64,000 bases of DNA from Natrinema caseinilyticum (lineage in GTDB: Archaea; Halobacteriota; Halobacteria; Halobacteriales; Natrialbaceae): assembly GCF_024227435.1 (NCBI RefSeq), contig NZ_CP100445.1, positions 3,469,369 through 3,533,368 on the forward strand, written 5' to 3'. A model generated the notes under the pieces. The model saw only the letters and a list, made by a program, of their open reading frames with translations. It was not told where the DNA came from and did not search any database. Made by a program: the position numbers and the translations under genes. The stretch's first letter is position 1; each line of letters starts with the position of its first letter. Below, one piece after another: positions 44,781 through 49,773 of the stretch.

Positions 44781-44812
44781 CGTTCCGGCGTGGCTCACGC
44801 CGGGAGTCACAC
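44781..44812 (+). mobile_element. Solo TnpB-element (IS1341-type) end-like hairpin module A
   Basis: An 8-bp hairpin CCGGCGTG-GCT-CACGCCGG (44785-44803) followed by GAGTCACACA. The order TCC-hairpin-GGGAG-(gap)-GTCACAC mirrors the right end of the tnpB element near 49162-49192. No tnpB frame adjoins it, so it looks like a relic or detached end. Confidence 0.4.
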
Positions 44813-44821
44813 AGATTCGAG

Positions 44822-44858
44822 GAGAAAGTCCACGACTTCAATCGTGGGAGTAGTCACA
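44822..44858 (+). mobile_element. Solo TnpB-element (IS1341-type) end-like hairpin module B
   Basis: GAGAAAGTCC then hairpin CCACGA-CTTCAA-TCGTGG (44830-44847), then GAGTAGTCACAC. The arrangement matches the right end of the tnpB element (GAAGCTCC-hairpin-GGGAGGATGTCACAC). It sits 43 nt before the J-domain gene start. Confidence 0.45.
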
Positions 44859-44900
44859 CACGGAAAGACCCTTTTCGACGAAGCATCGATTGCAGCAACG

Positions 44901-45306
44901 ATGACGAGCCACTACGAGGCCCTCGGGCTCACACCGGACGCCGACGAACAGGCGGTCCGGCGGGCCTACAGGGTCCTCTTGAAGGATCATCATCCTGACC
45001 ACGGTGGCTCTCGCGAGCAGTTCCTTCGGATCAAGGAAGCGTACGAACACATTCTCGGTGAACGGGCCCCCAACGACCGCGAGACCGACGGGGGTACGCG
45101 GTCTGAGGGCGGACGGGGACTCGAGACGCATGGCCGAGCGAGCGGTGGTGCGATCACACGCGACGGTTACGACCCGTACGACGATGTACACCCAGCACGG
45201 CCCCGACGAGGGCGGGGAGACCGGTTCGGACACCGAGCGGCACCTCTTCGAGCTGAAACCGCTGGTTCGCGAGCGGCTCGACCGATTCCCGTTCGAGCGG
45301 GAGTGA
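44901..45306 (+). pseudogene. J-domain (DnaJ-like) protein, apparently frameshifted
   Basis: ATG 44901 opens a J domain: HYEALGLTPDADEQAVRRAYRVLLKDHHPDHGG, with the HPD tripeptide, then EQFLRIKEAYEHILGE. After ~95 residues the frame becomes Arg/Pro-rich with poor third-position GC and runs to a stop at 45389. In the +1 frame from 45184 the codon pattern is again strongly GC3 and reads a plausible acidic tail (HLFELKPLVRERLDRFPFERE) ending at 45306. The simplest reading is one extra base near 45183-45187 in a gene that should end at 45306. Alternatively a separate 40-residue ORF starts at ATG 45184, or the read has an error. J proteins stimulate Hsp70 ATPase. Confidence 0.6.
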
Positions 45307-45415
45307 GCGCGGTCGGGCCGGACCCGGTCGTGGTCGGCCGATCGAGAGGGGCGGCGAGCCACCGACTCGGCGCCGAACAACAAGCATGATACGGCGGTGC
45401 TTCTAACGTCCGATA

Positions 45416-46018
45416 ATGGCAACCGCTGACGCGAGACGGCGACTCCGGGAGCGGCCGATGGGCGTAACGATCCTCTTGACGATCATCGGCTACGCGTTGG
45501 TACTCGGAACGTTCCTGCTCGACGTGCCGATCTATCCCGACCTCACGCGGGCACAAATCAATCTGCTCACGCACGCGATCGCCGTGATAAACACGACGGC
45601 GACGATTCTGCTCGTCAGCGGCTGGTACTGGATTCGCGCGGGCGAGATCAGAAAGCACCAGCTCTCGATGATGGGCGCGTTCGCGCTGATCCTGCTGTTT
45701 CTGGTCGTCTATCTGCTCAAAGTCGGCGGCGGCGGCGAGAAGCACTTCGTCGGTCCGGACCTGGTCTTCTACGCGTACCTGATCATGCTCGCGATACACA
45801 TCGTCCTCTCGGTCGTCTCCGTGCCCGTCGTCCTCTACGCGTTGATCCTCGGGCTCACTCATACCCCCGCCGAACTCAGATCCACGCCCCACGCCAGGAT
45901 CGGCCGTATCGCCGCCGGCGCGTGGATTCTGAGCCTCACGCTGGGGGTCGTCACCTACGTTCTACTCAATCACGTCTACGACTTCGAGTTCGCGTCGATG
46001 CTCGTCCCGATCGTCTAA
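45416..46018 (+). CDS. DUF420 membrane protein
   Basis: 200 residues with five to six membrane helices (about 18-37, 52-74, 85-106, 118-142 and 170-190). HAIAVINTTATILLVSGWYWIRAGEIRKHQLSMM and HIVLSVVSVPVVLYALILGL correspond to DUF420, a family often linked to terminal oxidase assembly (CtaG/Cox-related) in haloarchaea and bacilli. Conserved His residues facing the membrane (HAIAV, KHQLSM, HIVLS) suggest metal or haem handling. Encoded ~27 nt after the decayed end of the J-domain frame, on the same strand. Confidence 0.9.
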   Translation: MATADARRRLRERPMGVTILLTIIGYALVLGTFLLDVPIYPDLTRAQINLLTHAIAVINTTATILLVSGWYWIRAGEIRKHQLSMMGAFALILLFLVVYLLKVGGGGEKHFVGPDLVFYAYLIMLAIHIVLSVVSVPVVLYALILGLTHTPAELRSTPHARIGRIAAGAWILSLTLGVVTYVLLNHVYDFEFASMLVPIV

Positions 46019-46042
46019 CGACACGCCGGGAAGACGCGGACC

Positions 46043-46053
46043 GATAAGTTATC
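46043..46053. promoter_or_regulatory. Palindromic promoter element upstream of thiR
   Basis: GATAAGTTATC, a perfect odd palindrome ~35 nt before ATG 46083, overlapping where a TATA box is expected. It could be both core promoter and an autoregulatory site; the latter is conjecture. Confidence 0.35.
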
Positions 46054-46082
46054 CGGCCGCCGCTCGTACGACCGTCTAACGA

Positions 46083-46982
46083 ATGCAATTCGTCGAAGAA
46101 ATCGTCGTGGACGAATTCCTCCCGACCGTCCGATCGCTGCTGGCCAGCAACCTGCGCGATCGGGGGCTCACGCAGAGCGAGGTCGCCGACGTCCTCGGTA
46201 TTAGCCAGAGTGCGGTCTCGAAGTACGCCCACGGCGACGTGACGATCAACGACCGCATCGCCGGCGACGACCGCGTCCGAACTCTCGTCGAAGAGCTCGG
46301 AACGGGGCTGTCGGCCGGCGACATTTCGCCGGTGCAGGCGCTGATCGAACTCGAGGTGCTGGTTCGTGACCTCGAATCCGGCGGGGACCTCCTCGCACAG
46401 CTCCACGAGGAGGCCGTTCCGGAACTCGCCGACCACGGAGCGGGATTTCGAGTCCACGATCCGGAGAGCGAACGGCGGGCCAGCGAACGCGTCCTCTCGT
46501 CGGTTCGAAAGGGATTGAGCGTCCTCGAGACGGCGAGCGGCTTCGCCGGTCTCATTCCGGCGGTCGGCTCGAATCTGGTCGCGTGCACGCCCGATGCCGA
46601 GGACGTCGACGACGTCGCGGGTGTGCCGGGTCGCATTTTCGACGTGAAGGGCCGAGCCACCGTCCCCGCGGCGCCCGAATTCGGCGTCTCCGAACACGTC
46701 GCCCGTGTCCTGCTCGCCGCTCGGCGCCACGGTTCTGAGGCCTCGGCGGCGATCAACATCAGATACGACTCCGAATTAGTGGACGAATTGGAAGAGCTGG
46801 GCCACGTCGCCGCCGAATTCGACGAATCGGGTGACGTCTCGTCGAGCGTCGGCGCGGCGATCGAAGACGAGTCCGACGCCACGGTGTTGTACCAGACCGG
46901 CGGCATGGGCATCGAACCGCTGATATACGTCCTCGGTCCGGACGCACAGTCCGTGGCGAACACGATCCGGTCGTGTACCTGA
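46083..46982 (+). CDS. thiR: ThiR-type transcriptional regulator (HTH + ThiN domain)
   Basis: 299 residues. An N-terminal XRE-like helix-turn-helix (LRDRGLTQSEVADVLGISQSAVSKYAHGDV, about 25-56) is fused to a C-terminal ThiN domain (about 135-298): VRKGLSVLETASGFAGLIPAVGSNLVACTP, GRIFDVKGRATVPAAPEFGVSEHVARVLLA, and closing YQTGGMGIEPLIYVLGP. ThiN is the archaeal thiamine-phosphate synthase module. When fused to an HTH without an active ThiD part it serves as thiamine-phosphate-sensing repressor ThiR. Likely targets include thi4 at 52062-52991. Sequence family is clear; targets are inferred. Confidence 0.88.
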   Translation: MQFVEEIVVDEFLPTVRSLLASNLRDRGLTQSEVADVLGISQSAVSKYAHGDVTINDRIAGDDRVRTLVEELGTGLSAGDISPVQALIELEVLVRDLESGGDLLAQLHEEAVPELADHGAGFRVHDPESERRASERVLSSVRKGLSVLETASGFAGLIPAVGSNLVACTPDAEDVDDVAGVPGRIFDVKGRATVPAAPEFGVSEHVARVLLAARRHGSEASAAINIRYDSELVDELEELGHVAAEFDESGDVSSSVGAAIEDESDATVLYQTGGMGIEPLIYVLGPDAQSVANTIRSCT

Positions 46983-47003
46983 ATTCGGCGGGTGAAACGA
47001 CGA

Positions 47004-47699
47004 ATGTCGACGGAATCCGCACAGGAGTTCTACGGCCGCTGGGCGCGTCTCTACGACGTGATTGCGCGTCGGACGCCGGGAATCGCACGGCTCCGACGGC
47101 GAGCGGCCGCCGCCTGCCGACTCGAGCCCGGCGACACCGTCGTCGAGATGGGGTGTGGGACCGGTGCGAACCTTCCCTTTCTCCGCGAACGGGTCGGTCC
47201 GACGGGAACCGTGATCGGGATCGACTTCACGCGACAGGTCCTCGAGCGAGCGCGCGCGGCGACGGCGGACTACGACAACGTCTCCGTGGTGCGCGGTGAT
47301 GCGACGCGGCCGCCGCTCGGGACGGGGGCCGCAGCCGCCGAAACGGACGGCGGCGAAATCGACGCCGTCCTCGCCACGTTCGTCGTGGGCATGCTTGAGG
47401 ACCCCGTCGCTGCAGTGGACGACTGGTGCGATCTCGTCGGTTCCGACGGGACCGTCGTCCTCGCCAACGCCGCGCGGAGCGAGACGTGGTACGCGCCGCC
47501 GGTCAACGCCGTCTTCCGGGCGATCGTGATCCTCTCGACGCCGCCGACGATGCAGTTGCGCTACGAGAACGATCCTCACATTCGCCTCGACGAGAAGATC
47601 GACGCCGCTCACGCCCGCCTCCGCCACCGGAGCGCCGCCGTCGCGGACGAAACGCACGTCCTCGGGGTCGTTCGGCTGACCGGCGGTCGACTCGAGTGA
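47004..47699 (+). CDS. Class I SAM-dependent methyltransferase
   Basis: 231 residues from ATG 47004 (MSTESAQEFYGRWARLYDVI); a GTG four codons upstream is less likely. Rossmann methyltransferase motifs: LEPGDTVVEMGCGTGANLPFL (motif I), TVIGIDFTRQVLERAR (motif II acidic end), DNVSVVRGDATRPPLG and IDAVLATFVVGMLEDP. It resembles UbiE/phospholipid-type small-molecule methyltransferases. The C-terminal part contains hydrophobic NAVFRAIVILSTPPTM. Substrate unknown. It follows thiR by 21 nt, so they may be co-transcribed. A TnpB element lies immediately downstream. Confidence 0.88.
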   Translation: MSTESAQEFYGRWARLYDVIARRTPGIARLRRRAAAACRLEPGDTVVEMGCGTGANLPFLRERVGPTGTVIGIDFTRQVLERARAATADYDNVSVVRGDATRPPLGTGAAAAETDGGEIDAVLATFVVGMLEDPVAAVDDWCDLVGSDGTVVLANAARSETWYAPPVNAVFRAIVILSTPPTMQLRYENDPHIRLDEKIDAAHARLRHRSAAVADETHVLGVVRLTGGRLE

Positions 47700-47877
47700 C
47701 CGGCGGACGATTCGACCGGTCGTCGGCCGTATCTATCTTTAATCAGCGAGAGAATCCCGGCGTTTACGCCGGGCGTGAATCGCGTCACTGGACCACCACT
47801 CCACCGTCGATAGCAGACTGGATATTCAACACTAATCATACCATACCATTAAGTTGGATTGTCTACATAGGCTATAT

Positions 47878-49128
47878 ATGGCGATTCAGGTCACTCGTAC
47901 CTACAGTGGTTCCATCCAGAACCAGCGACAGGTCTGCGAGGGCCTTGATTCGCTCGGTGATTCTGCCTCGAAAATCTGGAACGTCGCACGCTGGACAGCC
48001 GACCGCATCTGGGAAGAAACTGGCGAGATTCCCGATGAAGGAACGCTGAAAGCGTACATGAAAACCCGGTCGTGCTGGAAAGACTTGAACGCACAATCCA
48101 GTCAGAAAGTCATTGAAGAACTTTCTGACGCTTTCCAGTCGTGGTTCGACCGCCGACAGACAGACGATACGGCGAATCCGCCCGGCTACCGCAAACACGG
48201 CGATACCCGTCCTCGCTCCACGGTTACCTTCAAAACAGACGGATTCAAACACGATCCCGAGAACAACCGCGTTCGCCTCTCAAAAGGCTCGAATCTCAAA
48301 GACTACTGGTCGGACTTCATCCTCTGTGAATACCAGACACGCCCGGACGTTGACCTCTCAGAAGTCAACCAGGTACAGAATGTCCGAGCAGTCTGGAACG
48401 GCAACGAGTGGGAACTGCACTTCGTCTGCAAAGTCGAACTCGAAACCAACGATTCGGCATGCGACGGAGTGGCAGGCATCGACCTCGGAGTCAAGAACAT
48501 TGCCACGGTCGCGTTCCCGGACGAGTACGTCCTCTACCCCGGCAACTCGCTCAAACAGGACAAGCACTACTTCACCCAAGCAGAGTACGACACCGAGGGT
48601 GAGAACGGGCCGTCAGAGACGTCGATGTGGGCACGTCGGAAACTCGCAGAACGGGAAACACACTTCTACCACACCCTCACGGGCACCATCATCACCGAAT
48701 GCGTCGAACGAGATGTTGGCACGGTCGCGGTGAGTTGGCCTGAGAAAGTTCGAGAATCGGATTGGGGGAAGACCGGAAACAAGAAGTTACATACGTGGGC
48801 GTTCGACCGCATCTACCAGTATCTCGCGTACAAAGGCGATGAACGTGGCGTTGAGGTGCTGAAGGAGAACGAGTGGAACACCTCGAAGGCGTGTTCACGA
48901 TGTGGCGATGACACGAAGTCGAACCGTGTCGAACGTGGCTTGTACGTCTGCTCGTCCTGTGAGTTGGTTGGGAACGCGGATTGTAACGGGGCGGAGAATA
49001 TGCGCCAGAAGATAACTCCGAGTCCTCATGGTGAGGATAGGAGTAACGGCTGTGTGGCACAGCCTTCGACACACATGTTCGACCGCGAGAGCGGGACGTT
49101 TCACACGAGAGAACAGGTCGTGTCGTAG
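47878..49128 (+). CDS. tnpB: RNA-guided nuclease TnpB (IS1341-type)
   Basis: 416 residues from ATG 47878 (MAIQVTRTYSGSIQNQ). N-terminal wedge/REC-like region, then the RuvC-like core: Asp 202 in GVAGIDLGVKNIATVA, the second acidic site in VAVSWPEKVRESDWG (Glu 289 or 293), and Asp 368 in NADCNGAENM. The zinc ribbon is complete: Cys 339, 342, 358 and 361 (CSRCGDD ... YVCSSCE). Length is normal for the family (~400), so it appears intact. Characterised TnpBs cut DNA guided by a right-end-derived RNA (omegaRNA/reRNA), helping element retention. AT-rich DNA directly upstream (GCTATATATG) contains the promoter. Confidence 0.93.
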   Translation: MAIQVTRTYSGSIQNQRQVCEGLDSLGDSASKIWNVARWTADRIWEETGEIPDEGTLKAYMKTRSCWKDLNAQSSQKVIEELSDAFQSWFDRRQTDDTANPPGYRKHGDTRPRSTVTFKTDGFKHDPENNRVRLSKGSNLKDYWSDFILCEYQTRPDVDLSEVNQVQNVRAVWNGNEWELHFVCKVELETNDSACDGVAGIDLGVKNIATVAFPDEYVLYPGNSLKQDKHYFTQAEYDTEGENGPSETSMWARRKLAERETHFYHTLTGTIITECVERDVGTVAVSWPEKVRESDWGKTGNKKLHTWAFDRIYQYLAYKGDERGVEVLKENEWNTSKACSRCGDDTKSNRVERGLYVCSSCELVGNADCNGAENMRQKITPSPHGEDRSNGCVAQPSTHMFDRESGTFHTREQVVS

Positions 49129-49129
49129 A

Positions 49130-49187
49130 CCGGCAAATATCCCAACCTGCGGGACGGGAAGCTCCGGCGTTCACGCTGGGGAGGATG
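49130..49187 (+). ncRNA. Candidate right-end RNA (reRNA/omegaRNA 3' scaffold) of tnpB
   Basis: Sequence from just past the tnpB stop to the element end, containing the hairpin at 49164-49179 and the end GGAGGATGTCAC. In this family the scaffold covers the tnpB 3' end and element right end, with the guide read from flanking DNA beginning near 49188. Sense RNAs overlapping tnpB 3' ends have been described in Halobacterium. No transcript evidence is available here, and the exact 5' end is unknown. Confidence 0.45.
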
Positions 49188-49598
49188 TCACACCGACAGT
49201 TCGAGTCCCTCGTACTCCCCGATGCGCCGAGCTATCGCGTCCGAAATCGGGCTCGAGGTCTGCGTTTCGGGATCGACGTGAACGATCGTCGTCTCGGCCG
49301 TGGCCGCCACGTCGTCACCGACGCGGATCTCGTAGGCCATCGTGCAACTCGACTCGCCGAGTCGGGTGACCGAGAGGGCGACGGTGGGGTCGTCGCCCGT
49401 CGTGATCGGCCGCTCGTAGGAGATTTCGAGGTTGGCCAGGACGAACGCAGCGCCCTCGGCGCTTCGCCCCGCGACCTCCTCGAGGTAGGCGCCCCGGGCG
49501 GATTCGAGGTACGTCGCGTAGACGGCGTGGTTGACGTGGTTCATCGGATCGAGGTCGCGAAACCGTACCGGAACGTCAACGGTAAACTCAGCACTCGT
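49188..49598 (-). CDS. Acyl-CoA thioesterase, 4HBT hotdog fold, with non-standard start
   Basis: Hotdog-fold thioesterase: FTVDVPVRFRDLDPMNHVNHAVYATYLESARGAYL carries the 4-hydroxybenzoyl-CoA-thioesterase-type motif with catalytic Asp, then LEISYERPITTGDDPTVALSVTRLG. Homologues begin just before this block, but no ATG exists there; the codon in the expected position (49596-49598) is ACG, giving 136 residues. A TATA-like element is centred 28 nt upstream (49622-49630), matching a leaderless start at that codon. A GTG at 49655 would add 19 residues of uncertain coding quality. So it is an ACG start, a mutated start, or a longer protein. The stop abuts the TnpB element's right end. Confidence 0.8.
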   Translation of the reverse strand, partial: TSAEFTVDVPVRFRDLDPMNHVNHAVYATYLESARGAYLEEVAGRSAEGAAFVLANLEISYERPITTGDDPTVALSVTRLGESSCTMAYEIRVGDDVAATAETTIVHVDPETQTSSPISDAIARRIGEYEGLELSV

Positions 49599-49621
49599 TG
49601 TGCGTTGTCGAAGACCGCTGG

Positions 49622-49630
49622 GGAAAAGTA
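49622..49630 (-). promoter_or_regulatory. TATA-like box of the thioesterase gene
   Basis: On the complement TACTTTTCC, centred 28 nt upstream of the ACG at 49598. It argues against starts at 49655 or further upstream, which would lie before the transcript. Confidence 0.45.
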
Positions 49631-49773
49631 CGCACTGGTTCCGAGACGGTGGCACCAGTAAAGCACTGGGAGGGACCTTCGCCGACGCTGTCGACGGGAT
49701 GGAGGAAACGGTCTCCGACGACGTTCCGCGAGCGAAAATCCGCGATCGGACGACGGAGAGCATCGCCGCCGTC

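Follow-up and report, generated by a model that had tools for sequence, protein, structure and literature searches.

Terminal-only palindrome-associated transposable elements (PATEs) were described in 2011 in Haloquadratum walsbyi, where they include the core-deleted form of HqIRS46 and the 52-bp ISHwa23 (PMC3119063). In the IS200/IS605 element IS608 (ISHp608) of Helicobacter pylori, the left target TTAC goes with the guide AAAG and the right TCAA with the guide GAAT (PMC5934647). Haloarchaea also carry IS1341-type elements, which contain only tnpB together with sense overlapping transcript RNA (sotRNA, RF02656); haloarchaeal omega-RNAs have a right-end hairpin, and the sot0042 family is now read as omega-RNA (PMC12558985). 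Here, a 64,000-nucleotide stretch of the haloarchaeon Natrinema caseinilyticum (NZ_CP100445.1, positions 3,469,369 to 3,533,368; the whole stretch is called the window) was analysed. It contains two hairpins, modules A and B, which are each followed by GTCACAC and sit between genes for a HalOD1 and a J-domain protein, and a tnpB element about 3 kb downstream of them. Module B is very probably a terminal-only IS605-type element, a fusion of a left end (LE) and a right end (RE), which inserted beside the J-domain gene.

Module B is 47 bp long (ACAGATT...GTCAC), too short for a transposase gene, and has no terminal inverted repeats. Genome G010 has a tnpA/tnpB element whose ends match its arm, hairpin and tail type, as do the ends at loci L166 and L170. 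The left end of the full-length G010 element (G010:C1:2320998-2322718) reads TAC, then ACAGAATCGAGGAG-AAAG-hairpin-ATGAATC, followed by tnpA and tnpB, and the right end after these genes reads GAAG-hairpin-AGAAGTCAC. Judged from these sequences, the solo unit consists of the left arm of a G010-type element up to the hairpin and the right-end tail of the same element type. Like the Haloquadratum terminal-only PATEs (PMC3119063), module B is about 50 bp long, has fused near-terminal IS605-type palindromes and lacks inverted terminal repeats. It also shares with them the absence of target duplication, a short oligonucleotide target on the left side and the several solo insertions per genome. In contrast, it belongs to another sequence family, with the ACAGATTCGAGGAGAAAG arm, which occurs in Natrinema and other haloarchaeal genera, and the identity of left-end guide and right-end tail can be read base by base. 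Module B shows every feature of the terminal-only PATE class that was tested. It belongs to this already described class of minimal IS605 derivatives, as a new member of the terminal-only PATEs.

The guide of each end supports the same anatomy. The rule for pairing between guide and cleavage site is our own derivation from the IS608 data in PMC5934647. All three pairs were satisfied in 11 of 12 full-length right ends, in which TCAC/GAAG, TCAA/GAAT and TCAT/GAAA covary. The solo copies end like right ends, yet they carry the left-end guide AANN, as an LE::RE fusion predicts, and this combination is the signature of a fusion through the hairpin. As in IS608, the left target TTAC goes with the guide AAAG in the solo copies, and a few right ends in this analysis carry TCAA with the guide GAAT (PMC5934647). 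Unlike IS608, module B has no genes and a single hairpin instead of two.

Copies of the unit are dispersed. When the gene-spacer-gene DNA was searched, many short matches limited to about 44806-44857 were found in the own genome and in other genera. BLAST copies of module B elsewhere in the own genome were 92-94% identical. Twenty matching places were fetched; the copies read TTAC directly followed by ACAGATTCGAGGAGAAAGCCCACGACTTCAGTCGTGGGAGTAGTCAC, the flanks were unrelated, and the window TnpB matched only one of the 20 copy regions by tblastn (L065, a full element). With a covariance model of the dispersed repeat, module B scored 74.6 bits (E 3e-19), the window copy being one of the 18 model sequences. 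In the own genome at least 16 places were found by this model (E <= 0.001), all of them more than 2 kb away from any of the 20 tnpB places; this search scored 150 of about 2700 first-look candidates, and the counts rest on searches by model, BLAST and pattern. The 28 genus mates gave 0-17 model matches each, and some of the weaker matches represent the left end of a full element or a PATE with two hairpins. Natrinema gelatinilyticum (G023) has eight copies that are 95-100% identical, and no full-length parent element of these copies was detected in it. Solo sequences of 51 bp were identical between Natrinema and Natronosalvus. In a scan of named genomes, the right-end-type tail directly followed the hairpin in 11 of 13 matches. 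No match was obtained when viral contigs were searched with the solo pattern. An earlier note on this DNA had read module B as an isolated piece of IS605-family ends with no tnpB of its own, and the fused-end anatomy and the dispersed copies bear this out.

Other arrangements of these ends were also seen. L105 and L106 (G000:C1:2205174 and 1188791) represent a second solo subfamily with the right terminus TCAA; the two copies are identical over the element and lie behind TTAC and TCAC, so TCAC recurs as a variant target. L108 (G000:C1:1335121-1335411) is probably a PATE with two hairpins, about 290 bp long; it has a palindrome on either side but no transposase. Pairs of model matches a few hundred bases apart were also present in G015, G044 and G023.

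The occupied and empty sites were then compared. Nine genomes of the same genus align on both sides of module B, and the right-hand alignments restart at 44858. The spacer is mostly 45-52 bp in these relatives, with extremes of 10 and 76 bp, versus 97 bp in the window; without 44811-44857 the window spacer is 50 bp. The solo copies are not conserved at orthologous sites. A sister copy in N. gelatinilyticum reads CTTAC, then the 48-bp unit AGAGGTTCGAGG...GGATGTCAG, then GATTCG. The orthologous site of that copy in the studied genome reads CTTAC directly followed by GACTCG, which is an exact empty site without target duplication. The window site of module B is consistent with insertion behind a short target without duplication. 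For two other loci, the flanks of L110 were too diverged to resolve the empty site, and the comparison for L051 was only approximate. The refutation check set out in the earlier note, a wider alignment combined with a search for element-free allelic sites, was run, and the claim withstood it for module B.

The fused-end anatomy, the dispersal, the site about 47 bp shorter in the relatives and the exact empty site of the sister copy are direct observations, and the following origin is proposed for module B. Recombination between the two near-identical terminal hairpins would have joined an IS200/IS605 left end (start ACAGATTCGAGGAG, guide AAAG, hairpin) to the right-end tail ending in TCAC. Insertion would have occurred 3' of TCAC (normally TTAC), 3 bp upstream of the probable J-domain promoter, without target duplication. 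The most likely route is that the 47-bp unit transposed itself, through a TnpA of the IS200 type that worked in trans on DNA in single-stranded form; alternatively, a full element may have inserted and its core may later have been deleted in place. The chances are about even that the 47-48-bp one-hairpin unit is itself mobile with TnpA in trans, spreading across haloarchaeal genera without a parent. The eight near-identical N. gelatinilyticum copies without a detected parent and the exact empty site favour mobility, short of proof. The 51-bp sequences identical between two genera and the right-end-type tail in most matches of the named-genome scan speak for it as well.

A possible origin, to which we give somewhat less weight than an even chance, is that a full IS605 element inserted at 44810/44858, and that recombination between its terminal hairpins later removed the core, leaving an immobile 47-bp scar. 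Core deletions between two strains were observed directly by Dyall-Smith et al. for HqIRS46 and ISHwa23 (PMC3119063), and deletion in place agrees with both the fusion of the ends and the mismatch of the guide on the right. However, a parent with these ends was detected neither in the studied genome nor in N. gelatinilyticum, despite the eight near-identical solos of the latter, and identical solos are shared by Natronosalvus and Natrinema.

Several points weigh against a fused unit that inserted and moves by itself. The left flank of the window copy is TCAC and not TTAC, and the spacer to the left of module B is too diverged to place the left junction to the base. The solo guide AAAG fits TTAC and mismatches one base pair with the right-end TCAC, so right-end cleavage should be impaired; it also mismatches one base of the TCAC target in the window. 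Both tnpA genes of the studied genome sit in elements with different ends. When 293 genomes of the order were scanned with a strict pattern, 13 solos were found in 8 genomes versus 2 full-length-type left ends in 2 others; this 13:2 ratio speaks for mobility, but the pattern behind it was drawn from solo copies. Independent core deletions of a homogeneous, later lost parent would also give identical solos.

Bacterial repetitive extragenic palindromic (REP) elements, with their REP-associated tyrosine transposases (RAYT), are likewise short single hairpins in dispersed copies and have a relation to transposases of the IS200 type. It is improbable that the solo units are domesticated one-hairpin repeats of this kind, served by a dedicated Y1 transposase and perhaps acting as regulatory or transcription-ending signals. 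The size is similar, a single hairpin has a flanking tetranucleotide, and the copies are dispersed; however, the ends of the unit match IS605 element ends and are plain ones, and the copies are not kept at orthologous sites. The genome has only two Y1 transposases, each inside a tnpA-tnpB element with other ends, and no dedicated RAYT was identified in it.

It is highly unlikely that module B (and A) gives rise to an RNA which the intact TnpB loads in trans, with a guide reading into the J-domain gene. In favour of this reading, module B ends in a right-end hairpin and TCAC much like an omega-RNA scaffold at its 3' end, with 19.3 bits (E 0.017) in the right-end model. However, module B has only about 45 nt and one terminal hairpin versus a scaffold of about 174 positions, and its IS subfamily and target differ from those of the window tnpB. 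In nine relatives the site lacks about 47 bp, so the would-be guide is pre-existing flank, and module A is not an element end. Rfam RF02656 matched only at 49010-49182, with none at 44785-44858 up to E=10. A standalone trans guide RNA, as the earlier note had suggested, does not fit a module in which only the last scaffold hairpin is present. Its guide was expected to read into the J-domain gene, and the sequence downstream is the conserved upstream block CGGAAAGACYCTTTTC, older than the insertion. Taken together, module B as a trans-acting guide RNA is not supported by the sequence. Nor is module B supported as a leftover of the window's tnpB or as a guide for it; its left arm, target (TTAC/TCAC versus CTATC) and hairpin point to a different IS605 subfamily, and on these differences a piece of the window's own tnpB element is ruled out.

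Module A was judged not to be an element end. It is a real stem-loop followed by GAGTCAC, but CGTT and not the guide GAAG precedes the hairpin, and the right-end model gave no match to it up to E=10. A stem of at least 8 followed by GTCAC was observed once, versus 0.4 expected per 64 kb, and GTCACAC occurs 9 times in the window versus 9.9 expected. The spacer without module B is 50 bp, as in the relatives, which places module A within the ancestral spacer. The GTCACAC behind module A appears to combine the target TCAC with AC, the bases with which module B begins. Module A as a right end is therefore ruled out by the missing GAAG, the lack of a model match, the chance-level frequency and the position in the pre-insertion spacer. 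Of the four end modules counted earlier beside one tnpB, all stem-loops and motifs are present, but they amount to only one intact element and one solo unit.

The tnpB element lies between a methyltransferase gene and a thioesterase gene. It is an ordinary IS1341-type insertion, separate from module B and of another subfamily. Six copies with different flanks share the sequence spanning 47738-49191, always with CTATC in front, and TnpB copies that are 85-97% identical occur in many haloarchaea. The element is missing from the orthologous gene junctions that were recovered in relatives, and the nearest empty junction is in G023. The right end previously assigned to it is confirmed by the best right-end-model match in the window (49152-49191, 48.9 bits) and by the RF02656 (sot0042) match just before (49010-49182), which reached 86 bits, just below the 88-bit gathering score. 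Its left hairpin followed by GTCAC had likewise been taken as an end module. It is a genuine left-end palindrome, and a chance motif is ruled out because all six compared copies have kept GTCAC in their left ends, but it is internal and not the element end. Like haloarchaeal IS1341-type elements with sotRNA, 47738-49191 has their protein, scaffold RNA and right end, and the sole notable difference is a non-canonical second RuvC motif. This motif (residues about 283-293; gene 47878-49125) reads VSWPEKVRE where others have EDL. SWPE is common to 5 of 5 TnpB homologs compared, which makes it a family trait, and the nuclease may be either active with a relocated glutamate or inactive.

Two side observations concern the right end of this element. 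On the minus strand, the TCA of its TCAC (49188-49190) provides the thioesterase gene (49188-49763) with its stop codon, TGA, and the G023 ortholog of this gene appears to stop with TAG. At L188 (Natribaculum luteum plasmid NZ_CP095398.1), the right-end palindrome of a homologous tnpB element is split by a palindromic sequence of about 45 bp, which recalls SMR elements, said to target such palindromes (PMC3119063).

Table 1. Positions of the features of the solo unit, its surroundings and the tnpB element in the window.
Feature	Position	Strand	Basis or remark
Module B, solo one-hairpin IS605-type element (terminal-only PATE), 47 bp, ACAGATTCGAGGAGAAAG-hairpin-GAGTAGTCAC	44811..44857	+	Dispersed repeat; spacer of relatives about 47 bp shorter
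TCAC, target tetranucleotide at left flank (TTAC in most copies)	44807..44810	+	Flanks of aligned copies
AAAG, left-end guide tetranucleotide 5' of hairpin	44825..44828	+	Identical to left guide of IS608
Hairpin of solo element, common to left-end arm and right-end tail	44830..44847	+	
TCAC, right cleavage site and right terminus of solo element	44854..44857	+	Alignments of relatives resume at 44858
Module A hairpin, 8-bp stem and 3-nt loop, part of pre-insertion spacer	44785..44803	+	
Block CGGAAAGACYCTTTTC, conserved, probable B recognition element (BRE)/TATA promoter of J-domain gene	44861..44876	+	Alignment of nine relatives
J-domain (DnaJ) protein gene	44901..45308	+	Pfam PF00226, E 2e-11
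IS1341-type (tnpB-only IS605-family) element, 1454 bp	47738..49191	+	Shared sequence of six copies; target CTATC 47733-47737
Left-end palindrome of tnpB element	47756..47773	+	
tnpB, 416 aa	47878..49128	+	Pfam PF07282 and PF01385
sotRNA/omega-RNA scaffold region and right end of tnpB element	49010..49191	+	Rfam and right-end model
GAAG, right-end guide	49158..49161	+	Predicted to pair with TCAC 49188-49191 by the IS608 rule
TCAC, right terminus of tnpB element	49188..49191	+	

The right edge of module B is 3 bp upstream of the CGGAAAGACYCTTTTC block, and this block, within 44858-44880, is kept across the nine relatives. From its position and sequence, the block is probably the BRE/TATA promoter of the J-domain gene, and expression of this gene may be affected by the insertion of module B beside it. 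Isolated hairpin-GTCAC modules near a tnpB need not be spare guide RNAs. By the pairing code of IS605 elements, left ends, right ends and fused solos would be distinguishable by sequence alone. If the solo units are mobile, they would be among the smallest transposable units known, in which one hairpin serves both ends and the guide matches only the left cleavage site. They would then represent a near-minimal substrate for transposition, which reopens a question standing since 2011, namely whether forms of 52 bp are open to mobilisation. With the N. gelatinilyticum copies that have no detected parent and the base-exact empty site, this mobility is directly testable.

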